A DNA stretch of 64,000 bases, taken from Coptis chinensis (lineage: Eukaryota > Streptophyta > Magnoliopsida > Ranunculales > Ranunculaceae). Both the position numbers and the translations under genes were made by a program. The notes beneath the pieces are model-generated. The model was given only the letters and a program-made list of their open reading frames with translations, searched no databases and was not told the origin of the DNA. Each line of letters starts with the position of its first letter. Positions within the stretch are counted from its first letter, which is position 1. This document shows, piece by piece, positions 5,391 to 64,000 of this stretch. The stretch covers positions 72,135,501 to 72,199,500 of the forward strand of contig CM027378.1 of assembly GCA_015680905.1 (NCBI GenBank), written 5' to 3'.

Positions 5391-6344
5391 TGATAATTGG
5401 TAATTTCAGGTTTTGTCATTTAAGTCCAAAGTCCAAAGTCCATAAACATCTGATTAGTCAAGTTATCTTACTCACGTGGGTTGGTAGGATAGGTTGACTA
5501 AGAGATCGTCCATACCTTAGGGCTCGGCAAAGTTCACAACTGGATTTACAACTTTTAGTGAGTAGGATTTTAGGTTATTTCTTTGGTTTAAGTAAATTAA
5601 CGGTAATGCAAGTAACATAAACTAACAACGATTGATTTCAACGTAAAATAAACAGGGATAGAGATACAAGAAAAAGGGTTAACCGTACTCATGCAAGAAT
5701 CAATTTCAACAGTTAGAGTACCATATCACTACAGCTCTAATCTGTCTCGAGTTCATAGACAAACTCGGGACGACGTCGAGTATCGATCCCTAGTGAGATG
5801 CACGCATCTCTGAGCTCATCTCACTAGCATAAGGAGTTGAACTAATATTCCATCTCTGGAATATCATTTCAGCTCCTAGTTCGATTCTACATCAGTTGGA
5901 CAAACTAGAGAGCTAACGACAACCATAGGGTCTCGCGCGAGACTTTTTAAGTCTCTCGCGAGACTGTTCTGGAGTATCATCACTCCAAACTTGGACAATC
6001 TTAATCATTTTGGGACTGGATGCATAATCTACACCTAATTCCTAAGTAGTGATTCTGGAACATTAAAGTGTCAATCTTGGTCCTCACATAAGCATCATTA
6101 ACCCCCTTAGGAGGATTTTAGCTCATGGTCATTGGATGATTAATTGATTTTGTTGTATACAATAAATAAGTAAATGAAGAACAAGAATTTAACTTGAAAA
6201 GAAATGAATTTTATTAAAGTAAAAAACTTACAGTACTTGATGCTGGAATGAAAAGTTACTGGAAGGAGAATGAAAAGCTACAGAAGGAAACTACTGCAAG
6301 AATGTAAAGCTAAAACTAAAATCTAAAAACTAACTCCCATATCC

Positions 6345-6388
<44 letters not shown>

Positions 6389-7065
6389 CCCCTTCACGTG
6401 TAGCCTCCCCCCCCCCCCCCTCCCCCCACCCTTATAATTCATTTTGTCTTTTCTTACCTTGTTTCATTTTTTCGTCCTTTTCTTGTCTAATAAACCAAAC
6501 TTTGTTTTTAACAAAGTTTGTCCTTTCTCTGCTTGCAATATCAAATCATGCATTTAAGGTTTTGTTTCATTTCTCTTGCAAGGTGTGCCCCTCACTAGCC
6601 ACCTGTCTCTGGTGACTCATCATTTCTTGTAGGCCCGCAAAGTGGGTCCACGTGCTGTGTCTAGTGACGGCTCGGATTTTAGTATTTTTACAACTTTATG
6701 TCTTTGCATAAAGCTCGTCGCTCTGGTTGCTCTGGCAGTTCAATTGTCGAAATCAGTGTCTACGTTTGAAAGATGTGAGTTTCGGAAGTTTGCTGCTTCT
6801 TTACACGTGGACCTGTTCTGCACTGGTTTTGTGCATTTGGAATCATCAGCTCTAGTCAGGCTTTGTTGGGCTTCACTGGGGCTGAGTGGGAAAACTTCAA
6901 GTATGCACAATATTCTCGTACTTTGATGCATGTTTTATCATCATATTCACGTTAACTGCGAAAACCTGTAAAAGTACGAAAATATAATTATTTCATGATT
7001 ATTAAACACATAATTAACCAAAATGCTATGTCTCTCGGGGTTAGTATTACAGTTTTGGGTGCTTA
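5391..7065 (-). repeat. Athila LTR, 3' LTR of the minus-strand element
   Basis: It starts TGATAATTGG and aligns along its length with 19786-21463. The inner end reads GGGTGCTTA where the other copy has GGGTACTTATCA, so the terminal TCA is missing. It holds a (TA)n run at about 6349-6387, absent at that length from the other LTR, and a poly-C tract near 6408-6430. Short ORFs in this LTR are not genes. Confidence 0.9.
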
Positions 7066-19785: not shown

Positions 19786-21463
19786 TGATAATCTGTAATT
19801 TCAGGTTTTGTCCTTTAAGTCTGAAGTCCAAAGTCCAAAGTCCGTAAACGTCCGATTAGTCAAGTTACCTTACTCACGTGGATTGGTAGGATAGGTCGAG
19901 TAAGGAATCGTCCATACCTTAGAGCTCAGCAAGATTCACAACTGGATTTATAACTTTTAATGAGTAGGATTTTAGGTTATTTCTTTGGTTTAAGTAAATT
20001 AATGGTAATGCAAGTAACGTAAACTAACAACGATTGATTTCTACGTAAAATAAACAGGGATAGAGATATAGGAAAAAAGGTTAACCATACTCATGCAAGA
20101 ATCAATTTCAATAGTTAGAGTACCATATCACTATAGCTCTAATCCGTCTCGAGTTCATAGACAAACCCGAGATGGCGTCGAGTATCGATCCCTAGTGAGA
20201 TGCACACATCTCTAAGCTCATCTCACTAGCATAAGGAGTTGAACTAATATTCCATCTCTGGAATATTATTTCAGCTCCTGGTTCGATTCTACATCAGCTG
20301 GAGAAACCAGAGAGCTAATGGCCACCATAGGGTCTTGCGCGAGACTTTTTAAGTCTCTTGCGAGACTGTTCTAGAGTATCAGCACTCCAAACTTGGACAG
20401 TTTCAATTATTTTGGGACCGGATGCATAATCTACATCTAATTCCTAAGTAGTGATTCTGGAACATTAAAGTGTCAATCTTGGTCCTCACATGAGCATCAT
20501 TAACCCTCCCCATTGGGAGGATTTAGGCTCATGGTCATTGGATGATTAATTGATCTTGTTGTATGCAATAAATAAGTAAATGAAGAACAAGAATTTAACT
20601 TGAAAAGAAATGAATTTTATAAAAGTAAAAGACTTACAGTACTTGATGTTGGAATGGAAAGCTACTAGAAGGAGAATGAAAAGCTACAGAAGGAAACTAC
20701 TACAAGAATGTAAAGCTAAAACTAAATTCTAAAAACTAACTCCCATATCCATATATATATATAGCCCCTTCACGTGAAGCCTCCCCCCCCCCCCCCCCCT
20801 CCCTTTATTGTTCATTTTGTCTTTTCTTACAAACAAAACCTTGTTTCATTTTTTTCGTCCTTTTCTTGTCTAATAAACCAAACTTTGTTTTTAACAAAGT
20901 TTGTCCTTTCTCTGTTTGCAATATCAAATCATACATTTAAGGTTTTGTTTCGTTTCTCTTGCAAGGTTTCACCAAGGTGTGCCCCTCACTTGCCACCTGT
21001 CTCTGGTGACTTATCATTTCTTGTGGACCTGCAATGTGGGTCCACGTGCTGTGTCCAGTGGTGGCTTGGATTTTGGCATTTTTACAACTTTCTGTCTTTG
21101 GGTAGAGCTCGTCTCCCTGGTTGCTCTGGCAGTTCAATTGCCGAAATCGACGTCCAGGTTTGAAAGATGTGAGCTTCAAAAGTTTGTTGCTTCTTTATAT
21201 GTGGACCCGTTCTGCACTGATTTTGTCCCTTTGGAATCTTCAACTCTAGTCAGGCTTTCTTGGGCTGCACTGGGGCTGAGTGGGAAGAGTTCAAGTATGC
21301 ATAGTATTCCCGTACTTTGATGCATGTTTTATCATCATATTCACGTTAACTGTCGAAACCTGCAAAAGTACAAAAATATAATTATTTCATAATTATTAAA
21401 CACATAATTAACCAAAATGCTATGTCTCTCAGGATTTAGTATTACAGTTTTGGGTACTTATCA
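19786..21463 (-). repeat. Athila LTR, 5' LTR of the minus-strand element
   Basis: It runs from TGATAATCTG to ACTTATCA, perfect inverted hexamers TGATAA/TTATCA. It aligns with 5391-7065, with many substitutions and short indels (for example an extra 7-base TCCAAAG unit near 19825 and a much shorter TA run near 20752-20763). Confidence 0.9.
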
Positions 21464-23757: not shown

Positions 23758-24122
23758 TGTAGTGGTAGGATTAGGGACCATGGACATCAGTGGGTAGATG
23801 CGCCCGGGTCGGTTTAGGAAACTTAGCCGCGGTGTACAGGATCAGAGCCAAGGCATATGGTTGTGGTACGGAAACCCTACACGTGGAGATAAGAAAACCG
23901 CGAGATGGAGGGACAGATGGAGGGCCATGATTGATGCAGAGAAAGATATAAAGAGAAAGAGTGGGAGAGAGAGAGAAGGAGGAGGATTCATTAATCCAAA
24001 AAAGAAGACCTAAGAGAAAAGGGGAGCGACCTAGAGAGAGAAAGGGGAGTGAGTAGGGCTAAGAGGAGAATAGTGCCTAAGAGCTAGTGAATAGTGCTTG
24101 TAATAGAAACAGGGTTGTAACA
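23758..24122 (+). repeat. Tat 5' LTR
   Basis: 365 bp, TGTAGTGGTAGG to TTGTAACA. It matches the 3' LTR closely; most differences are G/A or C/T, many at CpG or CNG positions. Confidence 0.92.
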
Positions 24123-24124
24123 TT

Positions 24125-24142
24125 TGGCGCCGTCTGTGGGGA
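24125..24142 (+). other. Tat primer-binding site
   Basis: TGGCGCCGTCTGTGGGGA lies two bases after the LTR. This is the conserved primer site of plant Tat/Retand-like elements. Confidence 0.85.
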
Positions 24143-32574: not shown

Positions 32575-32938
32575 TGTGGTGGTAGGATTAGGGACCATGG
32601 ACATCAGTGGGTAGATATGCCCAAGTCGATTTAGGAAACTTAGCCACGGTGTACAGGATCAGAGCCAAGGCACATGGTCGCGGTACGGAAACCCTACACG
32701 TGGAGATAAGAAGACCACGAGATGGAGGGACAAATGGAAGGCCATGATGGATGCAGAGAAAGATATAAAGAGAAAGAGTGGGAGAGAGAAAAGGAGGAGG
32801 ATTCATTAATCCAAAAAAGAAGACCTAAGAGAAAAGGGGAGCAACCTAGAGAGAGAAAATGGAGTGAGCAGGGCTGAAAGGGAGAATAGTGCCTAAGAGC
32901 TAGTGAATAGTGCTTGTAATAGAAACAAGGTTGTAACA
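32575..32938 (+). repeat. Tat 3' LTR
   Basis: 364 bp, TGTGGTGGTAGG to TTGTAACA, followed by TSD copy ATTGT at 32939-32943. Confidence 0.92.
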
Positions 32939-33909
32939 ATTGTGGCTTAATGCAATAATTTATTTGGCATGTACGTGATAAAGTGAAATGGTTATAAGAT
33001 ACAAATGCATGATACTTGAATAAGTTATGTAACGAAAATCCTAGTCCCTAGCTACCACAATTGTGAAGGGAATGTGATTTTGTTTCAAGGGAACTTGGAG
33101 CCCTTGTAGCCAAATGATGGCTTTATTTATCTTGTCGCTAATTCAGCACGAGACACACGATATTTTATGCATAAGAAAGACTTACTCACATAGCTTTGGT
33201 GTCAGTGTGGGGGTTACCTTGTATGTGACATCCCGCTTAAGGTAACTACACTGGTGTGGTTCCATTATGTAAGTGAGGCATGAGGATGTGCATGTTCGGC
33301 TTGATAGAGGGGAGTGATTGTGGTAGACAATAAATTACGTAAAACATAGAGACGACGTGATTCTAGGGACACTTGATCGAAGAAACTCCAAACAATAATT
33401 ATGATGATATGTCAAAGTATACTTTGAATCTATAATAAATGATTGATTATGGTTGTGAAATTTTTCATGGAGATTGTTCTCTTTGGTTTGATGGAATGAT
33501 TGAAAATTATGTTTAAGATATATTTTGTTTGGTTGTATTTTATTTCTACTAACAATTGTTTTGCAGAAGAGTGGGTTAAGGTAACTATTTTGCAGGAAAT
33601 TACCCACTCTGTGATTAGACCTATGTAAGTGTAAGTGTATAGTAAGTTCAATTTTTGGTCTTTTTGTTATATAATATGGATTTAATTAGAAGCTAAACTA
33701 CACCATAACACTGAATTTGCAACATCTAATAAAATTTATTGCTAACACTTATTCTTTCGTTACAATTTTTGTCACACATGTTTTCCGTTAGAAATCTTAC
33801 TAACCGTTACATATTATGTAGGTAAATATTTGTTTTATTTAGTAACATTTACCCAATATTAGGTGACAGATATGGATATTAAAGTGTGACCTATTGCCAA
33901 AAATTATAA

Positions 33910-37949: not shown

Positions 37950-39440
37950 TGCAAATTTGGTGTTATGTTGTGTGATATGAAGGAGCTTGGTGTTGCAGAA
38001 ACAAATTGGTATTCATTAATAAGGGGTTGGTGGGGATATATATATATATATCTAGTTTTTAGAGGTTAGTTCAAGGTTTACTTGCTTGGCCAAGTTGGTT
38101 GTCCATGATTGATGTCGACAACTTATTTCGTTAATGTATTATAGTAGTTACGATACTTGTCTATTTTGGTGTTTCTGCTTTTGTATATGTTTGGACATGG
38201 TGAAAAAACCATTGTATATAACTGAAATTCTTATTCTTTGAATGGTAAAGGTTGGTGGTAGTACTTATCAAAGAACTAGGATATTTGCATATGTGATTGG
38301 GTTATGTTAATTGGAATTAGTATATATGTAGAGATTGTTAGTTTTACAGATGAATAGAAGAATTTGGTTAATATATTGTGGAGTGAAAAGGGTTCAACAG
38401 GTGCTTATAAAAGGTGTTGTAGCATTGCAAGTGGTCTCTCAAAAAGCAGGGCCAGGAAATTCTATTATTTAAAAAAAAAAATACAAATCTTTACTAACAA
38501 ATATGAAACCGTTCCAAATGTTTTACTATAATAACGGAATATCAATCGTTAGAAAGGTATAAGTACTAACACTTTTATCTGTTGGGAATGAATCATGAAC
38601 AAAATGAATATCCGTTACTAATAAATTATAACGGTTAATATGTGTTGCTGAAATTAATTTAAGTAACACTTGCTAGCAGTTAGTAAATTTTCCAACGGAT
38701 AATAAGCGTTACTAACATCCGTTACTATCATTTGTCACGCAATTATGTCAACGCAAGATAATCGTTACTAATATTTTTTTGCAACGGATGTGTATCCGTT
38801 ACTAATATGTTATTATGGTGTAGTTAAAGTGCCTCAGTATAGGAACTAAATGTCTTAAAATTATTGAATTGGAAGTTAAGGCGCCTTAGTGAAGGAACTA
38901 CCTGCCTAATTGTATTGTATGTATGGATGTTGTATTATTAGTTGGAAGTTAAGGTGCCTCGGTGGAGGAACTATATACCTTATTGATTTTATATATGTAT
39001 GTATAAGTTTGGGTTGTATTTTAGGACTACTCACACCAACTTGGTTTATAATGCTGACTCGATTTGTATGTTTGTTTATCGGGTGTGTTCATAAAATGAA
39101 CATAGTCGATAAGTCTTGACAGGATGTTGAAGAACGTTGATTGTTGCATTTGGTTTGCGTTACCATTTCATTAAAGAATATGTTGTTTTCCTTTTGAGGT
39201 GTCATACATGTTTTAGCTTAGGCAAATGTTGTATTTTAAATGTAATTATATTTTGAAGAGTTGTACGTTTAAAGAAGTTTGTAACTTAATCCTGTTTGTG
39301 AATTTCGACATGAGATGTTTGGTTTAATGTGAAATAAATATATTAGATTTAAAATGTATCAAATAATAAAAAAAAAATAATGGGTTTTTGGAAGTCAGTT
39401 GTGTTATCCGATTTTGTCGAAATCCGGGTGTGACAGTTTT

Positions 39441-39789
39441 AAATAACTACCTCATTTTGGATGAATTACTCCAATTACATATAATTAAGCTAATCTTCAC
39501 GGGCCAATAAAAAGATCATATAAAATGATTTTAATCGTATAGTAGACAACTAGATATGAATTATAGCCACTAGTTGACATGTACTTGAAAACACACAATT
39601 ATCTAACAATGGCCTTATTTAAATGTTGCATGCCATTTTTTAAACAATAATTATAATTAATAGTAGTTTAACTAGGAAAACATGATCAAGGTTGTATATA
39701 TAACGAAGTAGTAGCACTACAGAATGCATAGGAGTCGAAAAGAAACAATGAGAAATATATATCATTGTTTCAAAGAAATTGAAGAAGTT
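39441..39789 (+). promoter_or_regulatory. Displaced promoter and 5' leader start of the peroxidase gene
   Basis: This 0.35 kb is what lay directly upstream of the peroxidase before the LINE inserted. It has a TATA box TATATATAA at 39695-39703, a CCAAT box at 39504-39508, a W-box core TTGAC at 39574-39578 and an RY-like TGCATGC at 39627-39633. Bases 39775-39789 are the left TSD copy; joining 39789 to 46645 restores a continuous leader with the ATG about 110 bases after the TATA box. These short motifs are only suggestive; the junction is the firm part. Confidence 0.65.
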
Positions 39790-39949
39790 TTTTTTTTTTT
39801 GAATAAGTTTTTTTAGGGTTAGGCATATCCCGGGACCTATATTAGAATATATCCCGGGACCTGTATTAGAATATGAGATAGATGTTTCCATTCTTGTCCT
39901 CCTCAACATAGGTAGTAAGCAGAGATCTTAGAGGAGGTACGAAGTATAT

Positions 39950-42900
39950 TCAAGTGTGTTCAGTTTCAAGGGAAGCCAAATGGTCTGCAATCCGATTTGT
40001 TTTCATGAAAACATGATCAAAGATAATACTAGTACATCTCCTAATAAGAACACTAATGGCATTGACAACATTCTGGCAGTACCATGGAGATGGTTTCCTA
40101 CCCAGTAATATGTTTATTGCCCCCAAAAAATCTGTGGCAAATGCAAATAGAACGTCTCCCCAAAAGTTCCTAGCAACTCCTCCCATACCACAGCTGGTGT
40201 CATAGACGGATCCATCTGTGTTTAATTTGGTAACACCTTCATCGGGCTTCAGCCAAATACATTGTGTTGGTAACTTAGTTTTGTAGTCCACAATAATACC
40301 AAGTCGATCAATGAGTATTCTGTCTTGGATACTGGCATAAACTGAGGTGAGCTGACCTTGAAGATATGTGATTGTCTCACTAATAAGCTTGTTCTTGACT
40401 GCCCTCCATGGCCGAGTGGAGTTGTTAAATCTCCTGTTAATTCTTTCTTGCCACATATGACTGATAGTGGCACATGTAAATACTTTGATGATTTCAGCAG
40501 TCAAGGTTTTCTTACTACAAATCATAAGAAGTTCAATCCATTCACCATTTGGGCTATGAGAATGAGTCCTAATTCTTAAGAGTTGTTTCACAGTCCTCCA
40601 AATGTGTTTGGTATAGCTGCACTCAAAGAAAAGATGGAAGGAGTTTTCTCTATCATTGTTGCAAAAGCAACATGTTGAAATATGAAGTACCTTCTTTTGT
40701 ATAAGTCTATCTTGAGTGGGTAAGCTGCTAGCAAACATTTGCCAAGTTGTAAAAGAATGTCGAGGCAGTACATACTTTCCCCATACATGACTATACCATC
40801 GTACCCTCTCCCTTGGAGCCCGAAGTGAATTATAAGCAGATTTGGAAGAAAACTTACCGGTAGAGTCTGGGGTCCATATACCACCATATCATGAGAAAGG
40901 TAGTTATTGATCTCAGTACCAAGTATCAAGCTTTTGAGAGTTGATGGAGGCAGGTTGAGCACAATGTCATTCCAAACACCATTAGAAATCAATGTACTAA
41001 CTCTTAAATCATCAGGGAGATAGATAGATTAAGCTTTTTGCCTCTAGATTTTCAAAGAGACGGATCTCAGAGCACCATATGTCATGCCATAGGAAGGTAT
41101 CATCTCCATTGGCAATTGAGTGCCTAATGAATTTTCTAGTAGTAACTCGAGTTTCCAAAATATTCCTCCAAACCCAAGAACAATCTTTTGGGACCTGCAT
41201 CATCCAGAAGAATTTATTCTTAATGTGTTGAGCCCATGTCCATTGCATCCATAAACTTTCTCCCTTAGCTACAACTTTGAAGATAAGGCCACAGGAGGCA
41301 GCCTGATTCCAAAATTTTAAGTTCAAGATTCCAAGGCCACCTTTTTATTTTGTGAGAGTAGTTATAGAACTACTTGCATGGTGCATTTTGCTACCCATAC
41401 AAGGGCCATTCCAAAGGAATTTATTGCATAACTTAGTAACATGTTCAAGGACAGTCACAGGGAGTACAAAGGTTCGAGCCCAGTATATATGAAAAGAGGA
41501 GAGTATAAAGTGAATGAGCATGCTACTCTTCCAGCATGCGAGAGGCACCGAGCTTTCCAATCTTGAATTCTAGCAATGATTCTCTCAATAAGAGGTTAGC
41601 AATCTCGGATTCCAAGCCTAGTGGGGGGGAGAGGGAGCCCAAGATAAGTAATGGGCAGTGGAGCTTGATTAATTCAGAAAGAGTTTGCGAGAAGAAAGCT
41701 ATCATTGACAGATAGGCCTCTGGTGAGCAGAGTAGTCTTTTGCTTATTCATAAGGAGACCAAAACATCCAATGAATATACTCAGAGTCTCCATAACTAAT
41801 TCAGATGAGTGATAGTCACGTTTAAAGAACAATAGCAAGTCATCCGCAAAGCATAAGCTTATAACACCAATTTTCTTGCATTTTGGGTGAGGTTTAATGG
41901 TGTTATTTCTCATATTCGTCCTTAACAAGTAGCTCAGAGCCTCCATGATAAGAACAAATAAGTATGACGATATGGGATTGCCCTGACGAAGATCCCGTTT
42001 ACCATGAAAGTAACCCTCAGGTTTTCCATTGATAATAACAGAGAAGAGTGGTGTTGAGAAGCAAAGTTTGATCCAGTAAGTGATCTTTGGAGGGAAGTGA
42101 AGTTTCTGCATCATAGCTTCAAGGGCCATCCAATTGACAGTGTCAAAAGCTTCGCTTATATCGATCTTGAGTGTGCAACGAGGAGAAGTATGTTTCCTTG
42201 TGTAATTTCTTAACAATTCATGAGAAATGAGTAAATTGTCTTGGATGGACCTACCCGCAATGAATGCAGACTGATCTGTATCTGCCAAAGAGCTCATAAG
42301 AGGCTTAAGTCTGTTAGCAATGATCTTCGAAACACATTTGTAAGTGGTGTTGCATAGAGCAATTGGTCTGAAATCAGTGATTTTAGAAGCATTAGGAACT
42401 TTGGGAACCAAGCTGATAAAAGTGGAGTTGATGTTGGGTGTGAGTCCCTCACCATGTGACATAAACAGTGCTTGCTTTCGTGTGAAGAAGTCGAGCTACT
42501 CAGCCAGTTTGCCTTGCCCAAGCCGCGTGCGTTGCGCTTTGAAAAGAAGATAGTTTTTTTCAGCCTCTCACGAAACATGTCTACTGGAAGTGGGAAAAAC
42601 AGGAAATAGAAGAGGGCACGCACGCGCTTGAGTTGGCCTTGCCCAGAGCGCGCCCGCGCTCATGCCTATTCATACCGGGTTTCGATATTTTGCCAGAATA
42701 TTGAGATTGTGTTTTTACACTGATATTTCACCCCAATATAAATAGAAGAGTTTCAAGTTTTGGAAAACCAAGTCTTGAATAGAAACCCAATTTTGAGAGC
42801 AACCAAAATTGAGAGGAAACCCTTGCAAAGATAAAAAGCTTGTAAGGAGAGAAGAGAGATCTAGTAAGTTTGGAGAGACTTGAGAGAAGTAATTGTAATC

Positions 42901-44640
42901 TTCCTTCCCATATAAAAAAGATTAGCTCTTGTTGAAGTAGGCATTATGTGCCGAACCACGGTACATCTTGTGTTGTGGTATGCTTTACTTTCTTTGCTTT
43001 ATTATTACGTGTTTGTGATAGTTATTGATTTCTTAGGAAGTAGGGTTTGGTTGTTGGTTGTAGTGAAAGTTTAGATTTTTATTGGAGTAGTAGATTGTCC
43101 AAGTACAAGCTATCTTAGTGGGAATCGATCGGTATCATTTTTCCTTAATAGTTGAGTCCAGAGGGTAATGTGTTGGATGCGAACACAAAAGAGATGGCCT
43201 TCACAAAATCTTCTCCTACAGTGGACCAGCAAGCCTTGAAGAAATATGGGTTATAACCATCTGGTCCCTGATGCTTTGGCATTATTCATAGAGAAAAGTG
43301 AATCTTTGATTTCTTTAGCCGCTACATCTCCATCTAGTAAAACAACATAGTTGTTATCCACAGTGTTTCTGACATGAAGTTTTTCAATAACTTCCATATT
43401 GACATTATAAGTCTCCCCTAACAAATTCTCATAGTGTGATAGAATATGATTCACAACTTCTTAGTGTTCATAAATCTTAGTACCATTATTATCAGTAACA
43501 TACCAAATTTTATTCCTCATTCTCCTTTCTTTCACTATGTTGTGTAAGAATGATGTGCATCTATCACCTTCATGGAGCCATTGACAGTTAGCTCTGTGTT
43601 TAATATCCTCATATTCCATCTCTAAAAGAGTGGAGTACTCATTTTCTTGTTGTTCTTGCGCAATAAGGAGAGTTGCCTTGGTTGAGATTGAGTAATCTTT
43701 GAGTATCAAAGAGTTTCAGACGTGCAATCTCAGTTCTTTTTGAGATGTCAGAGAAGTGTTTTTTGGACCAAGTTTTGAGAACACCTTTTAAATGTTTGAG
43801 CATAAAGACAAGTATAAAGATAGAATTGCCAACAAAAGATTGCTTCCACTCTGCTTCAACTGTAGACATGAAAGTTGCATGGAGAGGCCATGCGTTGCAA
43901 AATCTGAAAGGATATGAGTGTTTAGTGGCAGTGTACCATGTTAGGATCAACGGGATATGATCAGAGACTCCTTGAGGGGTAAATTCAACCTCTGAAGCAG
44001 GGAATAAACTATTCCAGTGGACATTCACAAGACATTTGTCTATCTTTGGGCATCTCCTTGTTGTACAACTGCATTGTTAGTCCAAGTGGAATAACTACCA
44101 GAAAATTGTAAGTCAACGAAGCCGATGGTGTTGACACAATTTGAAAATCTGTGAGTTCCCTAGGGTGAACTAGATCACTACCAAGCTTTTCAGAAGAAGT
44201 AAGGATGTTGTTAAAATCTCCACTCACACTCCACGGATGGGTTATTGTATTGCTTAGTGAGATGAGATCATGCCATAAGAGTTTTCTTTCATTACTGGAG
44301 TTACTTGCATAAATAACTGAAAGAAGGAAATTCTGATTTGTAGGTAAAATAGTTACCTCACAGTGGATCATTTGGGCTGTGCTTTTGATGTGTTTGATTT
44401 GGATGAAGCTTGAGTCCCAGCATATCCATATTCTACCGGATGGATCTTCATTGTAGTTGTTCAAATAAGACCAAAAGGGACAGCAGTTACCTCTAATGAG
44501 ATCAAATTTATCTATTCTGACTTTTGTCTCTAGCAAGCCCATAATGCATAATTTGTTCTCTAATCTCACTTTATTGACTTCTGGCTCTTGCTACGTCATT
44601 TATTCCTCCCCTAACGTACATTCCATATTCCTAGCTTAGA
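39950..44640 (-). pseudogene. LINE1 ORF2: endonuclease, reverse transcriptase, RNase H
   Basis: 44569-44009 is the AP endonuclease (GLLETKV with the catalytic Glu, GRIWICWD, SGDFNNIL). 43709-43251 is the linker. RT runs from a GPDGYN motif at about 43255 through 42462-41674 (FRPIALCNTTYK, AFIAGRSIQDN, LRQGNPISSYLF) with the catalytic FADD in SLCFADDLLLF. 40992-40588 and 41326-41012 are the C-terminal zinc-binding region, and 40738-39950 ends in RNase H (LNTDGSVYDTSCGMGGVARN, NRIADHLASLE). Several frame breaks, and a solo LTR splits RT, so inactive. Confidence 0.88.
42432..43150 (+). repeat. Solo LTR (copia type) inside LINE1
   Basis: It starts TGTTGGGTGTGAGTCCC, a common plant copia LTR start, and ends TTCCTTAATA (AATA for an expected AACA). 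The TSD is GTTGA at 42427-42431 and 43151-43155. Removing it and one TSD rejoins the RT reading (LPSGLN then STFISLVPKV). A TATAAATAG at about 42737 could be its TATA box. No second LTR or internal region, so solo. Confidence 0.75.
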
Positions 44641-44671
44641 TATTGGAGATTATGTAATGTTACTTTCTGCC

Positions 44672-46129
44672 CTAACAACTCCCACTGGCTCTACCTCTCC
44701 CTCTTGAACTTGAAGGATTTTGTTGTTGTTGAGATTGAAGTAAGGGCCCATTTGCCACTGACTTGGAAGCTTTTTGATTGAGCAGTTTTTGAATCCTGGT
44801 GAGTGGTACAGAATTGACAGTGGAGGTTGTCTTTTCCTTTACCAAATGATCAGAGAAAATCGGGGAGGTGTCAATTGATTCCTCAGTTTGTATGTCCTCA
44901 ATCTCGTTGTAAATCAAGTGCTCATCTACATATTGATTCTCTAATACAATTGGGTCTTCAATAATCTCAAGAGGTGGGACATCAGTACCAGTATAAGGAA
45001 CAATGTCTGTTAGGTTGCCCTCAGATGGCATGTCATTTTCTGTATCTTCCAGGACAGAGAAAGGATTATTTAAGTCCACCACTATTGAATTCCCTCAGTT
45101 ATGCTCTTCTGTGATCACTAGCGGTAAATCAACTATTGCTGGATTAATAGAGCCTTGATGTAGAGGTTGTGGTTCGGACAAAGGGATTGCTTGAGTTTCC
45201 TCAAGGCCAGCTTGGACTGGTGTAGATGCTTCAGTTGCATGGGTGGTTAAGGTAGCAGCCCCAGTTACTTGGGTGTGATTTACAACAGTAGTAGAAGCAC
45301 TACGAGGTCCAACTTGCTGCCAAACAGAAGAATTCACTCTAGGAGCAATAACAGGAGATGTGTTTGTGTCAGAATTGGTCCTGGGAGGATTGGTGGTTCT
45401 TGGAGAAGAAGGAACTGCTCTAGGGATTTGTTTAGGACATTTGGCTATGGAGTGGCCAAAAATTTTACAGTGAGTGCATGAGGTTGGTTTCCATGAGTAT
45501 TCGACTCCATCTGTTGCAATCTTTCCCTCACCTAATCTAAATTTTAGGTATGTAGGATATAGAGAGTCAACTGGTACCTCGACACATGCTCTTGCAAAGT
45601 CAAGTCGAGTTCTTTTCTGAGATGCAGCATCCCAGCAATGAGGTTTCCCAAGTCTGCTAGCTATGAAGTCCATTCCATGTTTGGTCCAGAAGATTTTAGG
45701 AACATCGTAGAACTTTACCCAAATGGGGACTGTTTTAAGGTTCTCCCTATCAGTCTCAAGGTCTACTAATGAAAATTCTACCAGCAACAAATACGGGACT
45801 ACTTTCTAGAGCTCTCTGTCTATCTTCAAAATCGGAAAATTTAAAATATAGAAGAGATTCTTGTCAGTTGTCATGTCATAATTTGCTTTGGTCTTCCAGA
45901 CTTTCTCCAAGGCTCCTTTTACCCAACAAGGTATTCACTCCATAAGTCCATCCCTTCATCTCTAGTGGATTCAGGGACATCCACAGCATCGTCTAAAGAA
46001 ACAGAGTATAAAATCTAGTTGTTCATTGATATAGGTGTTATTTTTGTCAATAAACAAGGAGCTCCATGAGAAGGGGGGGTTGTTGCTCGAAGAGGGTTGC
46101 CCCACTTGAGCAAGGGAAGGATCCAGCAT
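44672..46129 (-). pseudogene. LINE1 ORF1: RNA-binding gag-like protein
   Basis: The likely start is the Met at 46129 (MLDPSLAQVGQPSSS). A DUF4283-like region follows across stops at 45970-45791 (FKFSDFEDRQRALESSP). 45790-45095 gives VPIWVKFYDVPKIFW and a zinc knuckle CTHCKIFGHSIAKC (CX2CX4HX4C). 45082-44672 is an acidic linker and a Ser/Arg-rich end. Frame breaks near 45970 and 45090. The protein would coat LINE RNA; this copy is broken. Confidence 0.8.
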
Positions 46130-46414
46130 AGTAAATCGAGATAAAAGTATAAAAGCTAAAGCAAGACAGAAAAGAAGAGAAGAAGAACACACTTGTGATC
46201 TCATTCCTTACCTAACGAGGACAATTTATCTATGCAAAAAACCTCAAGTTTGTTAAAAGAAGAGAGAAGATTACAAGGATAAACTATCTCTGCCGAGGAG
46301 TATGAGTGAACAAGCGGCAGGCGAAGATCAAGATTTCTACCGTTTACTCGAAAGTCGAGTTGAAATCTGTTCTCCAACGAGTTGCTTGCACAGAAAGATA
46401 CTATAAGTGGGCAA

Positions 46415-46516
46415 GAAGAAAGGATAAGGAACTAAGTGGGGTTATTAGCCTTATAACACGGACCTGAAGAAAGGATAAGGAACTAAGTGGGGTTATTAGC
46501 CTTATAACACGGACCT
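46415..46516. repeat. 51-bp perfect tandem duplication
   Basis: 46415-46465 and 46466-46516 are identical (GAAGAAAGGATAAGG...ACACGGACCT). It lies in the LINE1 5' untranslated region, about 160 bp before the peroxidase ATG. L1-type elements often carry repeats in their internal promoter, so it may be regulatory. Confidence 0.9.
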
Positions 46517-46672
46517 TAAGAGGAAATAAAAGTGGACTCTTGAAGATAAGAGATCGCCTTTCAAATCGCCCTTTTAGACTCAAGTGACGTTACAAGAGCC
46601 CATTCTTTGCCTCAGTCAATAAAGTTGTTGAAATTGAAGAAGTTAGTTTGCAATATTTGTTCTTGAAATAAA

Positions 46673-48103
<1,431 letters not shown>

Positions 48104-49725: not shown

Positions 49726-50550
49726 TCTACTATCTACTATATATATATATATATATATTAAAACAGAGCCCTCTAAGAGAGATTTTTCTCTCTCTTAGGT
49801 AGCACTATAATATGAAAGATATATATCTTTTTTCTAATAGCCTACAATGCCACGCACGTGGAACCTTTTTGGAGAGTTTGAGTGTGTTTCCACTTCCTGT
49901 ATATTTTACCAAATAATATGTGTTTTGTAGAAGTCGAATTCAGAAACTACGTAACCTCTCTCTATATTAAGGTAGAGAAAAATTAAAAAAACAATTTTAT
50001 AGTAAATTAATAACTAAAAGTTTCTCACGCATGTTGATAGAAATTATCACCATGCATGATTCACTTCGAGTGAAAAATTATTTCGATCTAATTCGCAAGA
50101 ATATCTACTATCTATATACTAAAGCAGAGACTCTAAAAGAGATTTTTCTCTCTCCTATGTGACACTCTAATATGAGAGATAATATTTTCTCTTTCTTATG
50201 TGGCACTATAATATGAAAGATAATCTTTTCTAATAGCCTACAATCTCACGTATATGGAACATCTTTGAAGAGTTTGAGTGTATTTCTAATTCTTATATTT
50301 GGAGAGTTTGAGTGTATTTCCAATTATTATATATTTGATCAAATAAAAAAAATTGCTAAAAAATAGGTAATTTGTAAAAGGTAATTTCCTATTACGAATC
50401 AAATACTTTTAGTGTTCCAATTCTTATATATTTGATCAAATAAAAAAAATTGCTAAAAAATATGTGATTTGTAGAAGCTAACTCCCTATTACAAATCATA
50501 CACTTTTAGTGTTTATGATAAAGCACCGACTTATTTAGAATATATCCTTA
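49726..50550 (+). mobile_element. Helitron-like 5' ends, two diverged copies
   Basis: A stretch beginning TCTACTATATA...AAAACAGAGCCCTC (about 49726) and another beginning TCTATATACTAAAGCAGAG (about 50107) share sequence for about 250 bp with each other and with 63763-64000. The TC start and A/T-rich lead fit Helitron 5' ends. The matching 3' end may be 63733-63762, which would make the surrounding nest lie inside one element. This is not proven. Confidence 0.5.
50320..50513. repeat. 97-bp tandem duplication
   Basis: Copies start CCAATTATTATATATTTGATC at 50320 and CCAATTCTTATATATTTGATC at 50417 and share most bases to TACACTTTTAGTGTT near 50513. Confidence 0.8.
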
Positions 50551-53809: not shown

Positions 53810-56800
53810 CTTTTTTTTTTTAAATAAGCTGGGGTTAGGTTGACCCCCACATGTATTCTATTAATCATTAACCATTTTGTACATAAATTTGTCCGCACGC
53901 ATCATCATTTATAATACATTGTAATCTCTGATTTAATGGGGGAACAAATTGCAATACAAAATCAGTTGAATCATGAAGGGATGCTAGGTAGTCTGCAGCT
54001 CGGTTCACTTCTCTAAACGCGTGAGAGAAGGAGATGAAATTAAATTTGCTCCTCTTCATATCAATAGCTTTGAGTATATCCAGGCAGTACCATAGAGGTT
54101 TTTCTACTTTGTTGATTGCATTCACCGCTCTTAATGAGTCAGATTCCAGCTCCACATCCTTGTAATCCTCCGTTATACATCGGTGTAAGCATATGTCTAT
54201 AGCTTTAAGCTTCTGGAATAGAACCGACGCCATACCTCCACTACCATTGAAGCTAGCAAGCACCTGTCCATCCTTGTCTCGTATTACCCCACCATGGCCA
54301 ACACCATTACTGCTCACCGCACCATCAGCATTGGCTTTTACTCTTTCACCTATTGGTGGATTCCATACAATGCCAGTTTGCTTTGGAATTTTATACCTTG
54401 TGTCAATGTGATGTCTGTGAAACAGATTTCTGGCCTTGATCGTATTCTTTATCTCAGGTCTGAGAACTTACAAGTAGTTTTTAGTATCCCTTGCCATCTT
54501 CTCAAAAATGCTTTTTGCGGTCTTGCTAGTATTCTGGAATCTCTGAGCATTTCTCTCCTTCCAAATATAATCGACTGATGCACAGAAGAAGACTCTGTAT
54601 ATATCTCCGACGTCTCACTCTTTGCAAATCCAAAGAATCGATGACCATTCTCTATTCGCTGATCAATTATCTGTGACTATGTCGAGCATGTGCTTGAGTC
54701 TTGTGATGATTTCCTTAGAGAATTGGCACTCGAAAAACAAGTGTCCAAACAATTCTTGATTGTTATTGCATAAGCAGCACGCAGAAGAGTGGAGGATTTT
54801 TCTTTACACTAACCTGTCTTGCGTCGGTATGCTCTATGAGAATAGTTTCCATGTCGTGAAGGAATGTCTTGGTAAGACCCATTTTCCCCAAACCAGGTGA
54901 TGCCATTTCTTCCTTTCCTTTGCCTGTGTTAGCGCCTCATACACACTGTGGGATGTAAACTGTCCACTTTGGTGCGGAGTCCAAACAATTTGGTCTCTAG
55001 AGAGGTGTCGGTTTATTTCCACTACTCGAATACCCTCTTTCAATGTTTGTGGTAGCATCAGGAGTACTTCGTCATTCCATTCACCATTTAAAATGATAAC
55101 GTTAACTTTTGCATTCAGTGGAAAGTCCCATGTTGCTCTTGCTTTTGCGTCCTCAATCATTGGAGATCTTGAGCACCAGATGTCATGCCACAGGAGTGTC
55201 TCTTCTCCATTAGCAATGGAGTATTTGATAAACTTTTTTGGTCGTGCTTCTAGTATTCAAGATACTTCTCCACGTCCAGGAATAATCGTTCAGCACCTTC
55301 ATACTCCAGAAATAATTAGATTTGATATGGTGCTTCCACGTCCAGTCAACCCAGATGGTATCTTCTCTAGTCACCAGCTTATATATCAGCCCACAATATG
55401 CGCCAAGGTTCCATCTGTGAACATTCATGATTCCCAATCATCCTGCCTCCTTTAGTTGGCATACAGTACTCTAACTTGCTTGGTGCAGCCCCTTCCTCGT
55501 AGTTGTGCCAGTCCATAGGAATTGAACACAAATGCTTTCTACTTGTTCGAGCACCATTTTGGGCAGAATGAAAGTTCTTGCCCAATATGTGTGGAAGGAA
55601 AGAAGCATTGAGTTGATTACTTGAAGTCTACCTGCATGAGAGAGCACTCGTGTTTTCCAGTTCGTGATCTTGTGAGTTACCTTTTCTACCAAAGGTTGAC
55701 ATTCCTTAATTCCCAACTGAACAGAGATGAGAGGAAGTCCAAGATATCTCATTTAACCAACTCTACATTTAAAGTGGTGGCCAGAGCATAAGCATCTTGG
55801 TCATTGAGTCCCCCAACTAGAAGAGATGTCTTGTGGTTGTTAATCTGCAATCCAGTTGCACTCCTAAATGAACTGAGACCTTCCTTAATCGCTTGTATAG
55901 ATGCCAATTCCCCTTTGCAGAATATAAGAACATCGTCAGCAAAAACGAGATGAGATAATTGCACCTTCTTGCATTTGGAGTGGTAATGGATAGATCTATC
56001 ATAGAGTTTTTGGTTGAGCACACAACTGAGTATCTCCTTTATAAGAACAAAGAGATATGGAGACAAGGGGTCTCCTTGTCTGACACCATGTCCTCCATAG
56101 AAATATCCTTTCGGGGCACCATTGATTATAACAGAATAAGGAGAGGAGATGCACATATCAATCCACTGGTACATTTTATCCAGAAAACCATAGGTCCTGA
56201 TCATTGTCTTGATAGACACCCAACTGACCATGTCATATGCCTTCTTTATGTCCAGCTTGATGGTGCATCTAGGGGTGTCATGCTTCCTGTCGTATCCACG
56301 AAAAAGCTCATGATATAGCAGGATGTTATCTTGAATAAATCTGTTAGGAATGAAAGCTGATTGATTAGTCTGTACTAACTCATCAATCACTAACTTAATC
56401 CTATTTGCAATAATCTTAGATATACATTTGTAGATGGTGTTACATAAAGCTATAGGTCTAAATTCCTCCACCTTTGTGGGATTGTTGATTTTCGGAATAA
56501 GACATAAAAATGTAGCATTAACACCTTTAGGGAATTTGCAAAATTTAAAAGCATTAAGTATAGCAGAAGTGAAATCATGACCAACTAGATCCCAGCATTT
56601 CTTGAAGAATATGAGAGTGAAACCATCTGGCCCTGGAGCTGCGTTCTCTTTCATCTCAAATAGGGTAGTTTGGACTTCCTCGGCAGAAACGTCAGCTTCA
56701 AGCAAAGGCTTCATGTGTTCCGAGATAGTGTTTCTTACTTGGAGGTTAGCAAAAAATTCCTCTCCGCATAATTCACCTGCCTCAGATCCCAGAATATCCA

Positions 56801-58347
56801 AGTAGTAGTCAATGATAGCTCTGTTTACTTTCGCTTATCCTGTGATAATATTCCCTTGGCTATTATGGAGAGTCCATATCCCTGTTCTAGCCTTCTTTTC
56901 TTCCAGGGTTTTGAAAAAGAATGTCGTACACTTGTCACCTTCTAGCATCCACTCACTATCTTGCTTTCTTTTGATTTCAGACACTTCAATTCTTGCTAGT
57001 TCACTATATCTCTGTAATGCTTCATGCTCCCTTTGTCTCAGGAAAGGGTCTGTAGGATTAGCTTGCACCTGCCTTTGTATATCATATGGCTCCTCTCTGG
57101 CTTGTTGCACTCTCCCATGTATGTTTGAAAAGTTGTTCCTAGCCCACGGCTTTATTCTCTCCTTCAGAAGCTTTAACTTTTGCATAAGAACATACATCAG
57201 ATTAGAGAAAATCTCCAGTTTCCAAACATCTTGAAGAATGATATGAAATTGAGGCTGGTCTAGCCAGAAGTTCTTGAATCTAATAGATGATGACTTACTC
57301 TCGAAATCCTTCTAGAAAAGTAAGATAGGCGAATGATCGGAGACACCATGAGGAAGAACTTTCGCCTTCGAGTTGGCATACTGTGCATTCCATAGGCTAT
57401 TTACAAGGCATCTATTTATCTTGGTCATGATCCTGCCTTGCCCCTTCACTTTATTATTCCAGGTATAGAAGAAGTCGTTCTATCTCAAATCTGTTAATCC
57501 AGTTTTCTGCAGACAATCTACAAATTCCTCTGCTTCTCTTGGGTGCATGGGACTCCCTCCCAATCTCTCTTCAACTTTGGTTATATTGTTAAAATCCCTA
57601 GTTGTACACCATGGCAGGTTCACTGTGCTGTGAATGTAAAGTAAATCTCTCCATAAGTTCAGTCGAAGATTCTTATTGTTTCGAGCATACACTACTACAG
57701 AATGACACATATACCACGGTCAATAAGAACGTTTATACTACGGTTCTTCCAAAAACCGTGGGAAATACTTATATACCACGGCGGAAATTTCTTTGGTCAT
57801 TGGTTTACTAGTATATGCCACAGTTACATGAAAACCGTGGGATAAGTTGGGCCATATACCAAGGTTAGTTTTTTTTTCAGCGTGAGAGTACTCCATATCC
57901 CCACTACCTTAGACATAAACAGTGGTATATAAATTTTTCACTTTCTACCGTGGTTTATGACTTCTTTATCTTTATATATATATAATAGCAGTCCCTTTTC
58001 ATCTTCTCTAAGGGTGTCCACGTAGGCAAATTTTAAGTACCCACTTTACTCACGCTAAATCAGGAGAGGAAAAAATTAATCACTGGGAAATAAGAAGAGA
58101 AAAAAGGAATTATACCCCGCGATTATAGAAAGGGGGAGAAAAAAACTGCCCAAGAAACTGGCCCTAAACCGAAAAACAGCCCCGCGATTTAAAAAACCAA
58201 AACCTTTCTTCTTTTTTCTTCCGCCGACCCTAAAAAAAAATTCCCAACACTCAAAAACCCAAAACCTTTTTCGGAAGTTCTCCATGTTCAGGAGTGGCAG
58301 TCCTTTTAGGAGCCAAGCCCCATATATCGAGGAAGAGGAGCTTGAGT

Positions 58348-63762: not shown

Positions 63763-64000
63763 TCTATATACTAAAACAGAGCCCTCTAAGAGAAATTTTT
63801 CTCTCTCCTAGGTGGCACTCTAATATGAAAGATATATATCATTTTCTAATAGCCTACAATTAATACCACGTTAAACCTTTTTGGAGAGTTTGAGTGTGTT
63901 TCCACTTCCTGCATATTTTACCAAATAATAGGTGTTTTGTAGAAGCCGAATTTGGAAACTACGTAACCTCTCTCTATATTAAAGTAGAGAATTTTTTTTT
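63763..64000 (+). mobile_element. Helitron-like 5' part, running off the window
   Basis: Starts TCTATATACTAAAACAGAG and matches 49740-49985 closely (CTCTAAGAGA, AGCCTACAAT, TTTGGAGAGTTTGAGTGTG). It abuts the preceding Helitron 3' end head to tail. Confidence 0.6.

Follow-up and report, generated by a model that had tools for sequence, protein, structure and literature searches.

What happens to a plant gene when a retrotransposon comes to lie between its TATA box and its start codon? The question is raised by a 64-kb stretch of Coptis chinensis DNA (C2:72135501-72199500, referred to here as the window), in which a long interspersed nuclear element (LINE) of the L1 type, in antisense orientation, parts a peroxidase gene from its TATA box. 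The explanation that we favor, at a probability of roughly 0.6, is that a redundant gene copy has been severed from its promoter by the LINE and is drifting toward a pseudogene. The LINE has entered the 5' leader of one gene in a local class III peroxidase array, duplicating a 15-bp target, and 6.8 kb now separates the TATA box from the start codon. The native promoter would then have stopped yielding translatable mRNA, and the redundant copy would have lost part of its constraint and begun to drift with its frame still unbroken.

The traces of the insertion were examined first at the ends of the element. The 15-mer GAAATTGAAGAAGTT is present in exact copies on the plus strand at 39775-39789, on the 3' (poly-A) side of the LINE, and at 46630-46644, on its 5' side, and no further copy with up to two mismatches was found elsewhere in the 64-kb window. 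The left copy adjoins a poly-T run (39788-39800), which is the poly(A) tail of a minus-strand element. When the sequence running up to the poly-T edge was compared with 46201-46672, 15 bases matched, whereas the maximum in 5,000 dinucleotide shuffles of 46201-46672 was 12. The TATA box TATATATAA (39695-39703, plus strand) and the peroxidase ATG (46673) are located where the preliminary description of this DNA had placed them, as are both copies of the 15-mer. After closure of the insertion in silico, 114 bases lie between the box and the ATG, close to the gap of about 110 bp proposed earlier. The rest of the original leader (46645-46672, plus strand) aligns with paralogous genes beside the target site.

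These paralogues were found by searching the retained promoter and 5' leader (39435-39789, plus strand), which now lie 6.8 kb from the coding region, against the same assembly, a search in which repeat counts are lower bounds. Three more matches were obtained, all on C2, at 72.368 Mb (L005), 72.296 Mb (L006) and 71.904 Mb (L007), within about 0.5 Mb and with 84-85% identity. Each aligned unbroken with the closed window sequence, from the promoter and TATA box through the ATG into the gene, and no trace of a LINE was found at the junction in the three alignments. The TATATATAA box is retained in all of them. The preliminary description would have been contradicted by related loci in which the 15-mer is not single; among the paralogues on this chromosome, the target occurred once in the 10 kb of each (3/3), differing from the window copy by one base in L005 and L006 and by two in L007. 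That the LINE lies between the TATA box and the start codon is borne out by these three empty sites. The insertion, the duplication of its target and the separation of the box from the ATG are directly observed. The opposing idea, that the 15-base repeat arose by chance and the real first exon lies elsewhere, found no support and has a negligible probability, because the paralogous empty sites are colinear and the shuffles fell short of the observed match; a chance origin of the 15-mer was ruled out on these grounds. LINEs are not known to depart precisely, which indicates that the empty state is ancestral. Because all three paralogues keep the empty site, the comparison also indicates that the insertion took place after the window copy had diverged from them.

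The original promoter had been described as about 350 bp long. This is the length of what remains, but L005 and L006 have about 1.5 kb more upstream sequence in common than the window copy retains, and the upstream homology of the window copy begins only at 39445 (versus L005 and L006) or 39453 (versus L007), indicating that its promoter is a remnant. The window copy, unlike the paralogues, also has an upstream ATG (39748) and a second TATA-like word, TATATATC (39756). Neither this word nor the short upstream frame was accepted as a feature of the ancestral leader, both being private to the window copy. As separate observations, the promoter and leader of L005 and L006 are identical across 353 aligned bases, against differences of 1.7-3.9% in their introns and 2.8% in exon 1, a hint of gene conversion. 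L007 carries about 110 additional bases, with a short repeat of flanking sequence, near the start of the homology between the window copy and the paralogues (L007:1680-1805).

The peroxidase coding region is intact, as had been reported. Its four exons (46673-46888, 47076-47267, 47411-47576 and, with the stop codon, 47697-48103, all on the plus strand in our gene model) have GT-AG splice sites throughout and encode 326 amino acids, with a PF00141 match (1.4e-37) over 47381-48103. In an alignment of 11 sequences, R63, H67 and H194 and the cysteines C36, C69, C74, C115, C121, C201, C233 and C321 were invariant. We take R63 and H67 to be the distal Arg and His and H194 the proximal His, and we assign the heme and disulfide roles of these residues on the same assumption. 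In length, in these heme and disulfide residues and in its closest solved relatives, which are plant peroxidases, the product resembles class III plant peroxidases, and the sequence identifies the gene as a member of that class. It departs from the class in having lost an Asp that is nearly invariant and a Phe that is fully conserved. Among 107 homologues of 300-345 amino acids, taken from the 120 listed of 4,438 matches, residue 254 was Asp in 104 and Asn in 3, and residue 70 was Phe in all 107; the window copy has Gly and Ile, respectively. Residue 254 presumably corresponds to Asp230 of horseradish peroxidase, a proximal calcium ligand, so that the predicted product would carry Gly at this ligand position.

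The three paralogues are in different states. L006, the sister of the window copy at a distance of about 0.11 Mb, has an uninterrupted promoter and an intact frame of 326 amino acids, and its product is identical to C. chinensis IFM89_010798 (P0001). L005 has an uninterrupted promoter and a frame-breaking 4-bp insert in exon 4, and L007 has an uninterrupted promoter and homology that stops after exon 2. A lone fragment of peroxidase exon 4, 83% identical to the sister protein, was also observed at about 72.33 Mb (L025:2092-2364). The intact sister would make the window copy redundant, and part of the constraint on the latter could be lost for this reason. The unspliced leader of the window copy is 6,948 nucleotides long and contains 118 ATGs, so read-through RNA should be hardly translatable, and the copy would be silent unless a new promoter or splicing came to its aid.

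To what extent constraint has been lost was assessed with 41 comparison pairs from the peroxidase family (82 lineages with 860 derived residues), which overlap and are not independent. The window copy and its sister differ at 23 residues and by about 58 coding differences. Polarized with Aquilegia (P0003) as the outgroup, 17 of the residue changes fell on the window lineage and 5 on the sister lineage, with 1 unassigned (two-sided P = 0.017). Seven of the 17 derived residues of the window copy were absent from all 107 homologues, compared with 121/860 in the pairs (P = 0.006), and no more than 5 such residues were found in any of the 82 comparison lineages. Changes at sites conserved to at least 90% were also in excess (5/17 versus 98/860; P = 0.04), with a neutral expectation of 47% (P = 0.10). 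The constraint on the window copy looks relaxed but not gone, with values between those of a constrained and a free gene. This partly relaxed constraint leans toward decay of the copy rather than its escape from silencing.

The divergence from the sister bears on when the relaxation may have begun. Synonymous divergence (dS) was 0.181 and nonsynonymous divergence (dN) 0.032, giving an omega of 0.176; noncoding divergence was 8.9% for the promoter and leader and 13.0%, 25.2% and 8.5% for introns 1 to 3. With dN split by the polarized residues and dS split evenly, which is an assumption, the branch omega was about 0.27 for the window copy and about 0.08 for the sister. Under a model of constraint like that on the sister followed by neutrality, the neutral part would make up about one-fifth of the window branch, or 0.019 substitutions per site. 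As a loose cross-check, if 4% of substitutions create a stop, the three in-frame stops of the LINE, whose coding sequence spans about 5.4 kb, correspond to about 0.014. The two values have large errors and agree in order of magnitude only.

Several results weigh against severance followed by decay. The 326-residue frame and every splice site of the window copy are intact, and the omega of 0.176 indicates that the copy was constrained through most of its history. The share of residues found in no homologue (7/17) was below the 62% expected for random missense changes (P = 0.07). With residues present in up to 2% of homologues counted as well, the excess over the comparison pairs weakened (8/17 versus 250/860; P = 0.09), and 8/17 was clearly under the neutral value of 78% (P = 0.005). 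At least as lopsided a division as 17 versus 5 was seen in 3 of the 41 comparison pairs, and for this reason the imbalance was dropped as proof of decay. Faster change may have preceded or followed the insertion. Copies at this locus also decay without a LINE, since L005 and L007 have broken coding parts behind uninterrupted promoters. Nor, for the same reason, does an intact frame by itself show that the window copy is in use. As proof of selection the unbroken frame was set aside as weak: the LINE coding sequence, about 5.4 kb, carries seven lesions supported by homologues, and at that density about 1.3 would be expected in the 981 bp of peroxidase coding sequence, with a chance of about 0.28 of finding none.

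The same observations would suit a history in which constraint was relaxed from the time of duplication, or once distal upstream sequence was lost, the LINE being a late bystander. We regard this history as possible but doubtful. The decay of L005 and L007, the commonness of lopsided pairs in the family and the shortened upstream homology of the window copy, which starts at 39445 and lacks the additional sequence shared by L005 and L006, all speak for it. Against it, omega was low over most of the branch, which a late onset would explain better than an early one, but this is not decisive. The bystander history overlaps with decay caused by severance, as the insertion is common to both and its causal role belongs to the latter only.

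Alternatively, the copy could have escaped silencing. Transcription might start from a new promoter about 0.5 kb before the ATG, in the 5' region of the LINE read in antisense. The TATA-like words TATAAAAT (46007) and TATAAAAG (46148) are present on the plus strand, two matches in 46000-46672 where shuffles give 0.2, and the intact peroxidase frame and an omega of about 0.27, under 1, also speak for this route. A TATA-like word is weak evidence, however, a leader starting at 46148 would contain two upstream ATGs (46232 and 46302), and the amino acid changes hit conserved sites more often than in the comparison pairs. We rate a new promoter as unlikely. The second route, in which the old promoter is still active and splicing removes the LINE as an intron of about 6.7 kb in the leader, appears quite improbable. 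A donor after 39936 (GAG|GTACGA) and an acceptor ending at 46615 (CTTTGCCTCAG) fall among the scores of the three donors and three acceptors, respectively, of the gene itself, but the splice-site matrix was not trained on C. chinensis. Moreover, equally good sites occur across the window at about 1.9 per kb for acceptors and 0.4 per kb for donors, and the eight best donors of 39725-40324 all lie inside the LINE, with none in the retained leader. By either route the dead LINE would have been co-opted, as an antisense 5' promoter or as a 6.7-kb leader intron, and the copy would be under new control. Co-option as a whole seems rather unlikely; if it did occur, the window copy would be evolving toward a new role while the sister keeps the old one.

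The LINE itself is inactive. It occupies 39790-46629 on the minus strand, with its poly(A) end at 39790, and has broken frames with matches to DUF4283 in open reading frame 1 (ORF1) and to RVT_1 and then zf-RVT in ORF2. The minus-strand pieces follow the domain order of L1 elements. About 500 bp of the LINE precede ORF1, and this 5' untranslated region includes two exact 51-bp tandem copies (46415-46516). ORF1 (44675-46129, minus strand; DUF4283, 1.1e-11), with a start codon picked by eye at 46127-46129, is broken, and its DUF4283 match is split across two frames, the first half reaching an E value of 0.099 only. The ORF2 pieces, also on the minus strand, are the open frame of a putative endonuclease (first piece, 44012-44590), a reverse transcriptase piece with an open frame (41677-42495; RVT_1, 3e-35) and a zinc-binding and RNase H-like part (39953-40888; zf-RVT, 1.1e-22), in which the RNase H-like family match (RVT_3, 7e-4) is under its curated cutoff. 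A Pfam search of the endonuclease pieces gave no match, and a LINE protein, P0166, matches the pieces immediately after them in changing frames; 44012-44590 is a candidate assignment from L1 motifs.

Frame breaks were located by tblastn of 51 reverse transcriptase relatives (the best 48% identical) on the LINE. Four frame changes, at about 44070-43990, 43740-43600, 43270 and 41500, and three in-frame stops, at 43461-43463, 41674-41676 and 41596-41598, were supported by homologues. In most relatives the homology ends near 43148-43151 and restarts near 42430-42490, with about 0.7 kb of foreign sequence between. This gap in the reverse transcriptase region marks a nested insert at 42459-43172; its edges are approximate and were placed with the help of a possible ATGTG duplication seen by eye. 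The frameshifts, stops and nested insert together indicate that the LINE is dead. Of the earlier term "full-length," the poly(A) end, a putative 5' end and the domain order stand, but the frames do not. Plant L1-clade non-LTR (long terminal repeat) retrotransposons, which insert by target priming, share with it an ORF1 with DUF4283, an ORF2 with reverse transcriptase, zf-RVT and RNase H-like parts, a poly(A) end and a short exact target-site duplication; there is no difference in kind, the window copy being an inactive one with a nested insert. Among 20 local stretches and the window, the closest LINE relatives were at 64-66% (L026) and 71% (55171-55344). LINEs make up 2.7% of the published C. 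chinensis genome (PMC8172641).

A LINE insertion into a leader is of an ordinary, known kind, and this case is an unusually well documented one that requires no new kind of element or mechanism. The Karma LINE of oil palm is likewise a plant LINE altering the output of a host gene, but it reportedly lies in an intron and acts via splicing and methylation, whereas the window LINE lies in the leader. In white torenia, the retroelement TORE1 upstream (5') of F3H is described as suppressing promoter activity (PMC4234012). In both plants a retroelement occupies the 5'-upstream region of a gene; TORE1 differs in being an LTR element for which loss of expression was demonstrated, as opposed to a LINE in a leader that would have silenced its gene. 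Besides TORE1, no close precedent was found in literature on LINE insertions, plant promoters and leaders, Coptis and peroxidase arrays, as represented by titles and abstract openings of mostly non-subscription papers.

The locus constitutes a natural experiment, with four copies of one promoter and leader in about 0.5 Mb, of which only one is split by a LINE, although two of the three unsplit copies are broken otherwise. It lets one ask whether an antisense LINE between the TATA box and the ATG silences a plant gene and how fast constraint then falls.

Scans of the 64-kb window with Rfam (gathering threshold) and for tRNAs gave no match. Other repeats were observed in the window. Direct repeats at 23758-24126 and 32575-32942, 92.7% identical and 8.8 kb apart, are likely the LTRs of one retrotransposon, and those at 5391-7065 and 19786-21460, about 1.7 kb long and 88.6% identical, are likely the LTRs of a 16-kb element. 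Downstream of the peroxidase gene, at 55749-56801, lies another LINE reverse transcriptase frame (350 amino acids), separate from the first. A short repeat pair (49752-49979 and 63765-63991) is 91% identical and has a third partial copy near 50112-50298.

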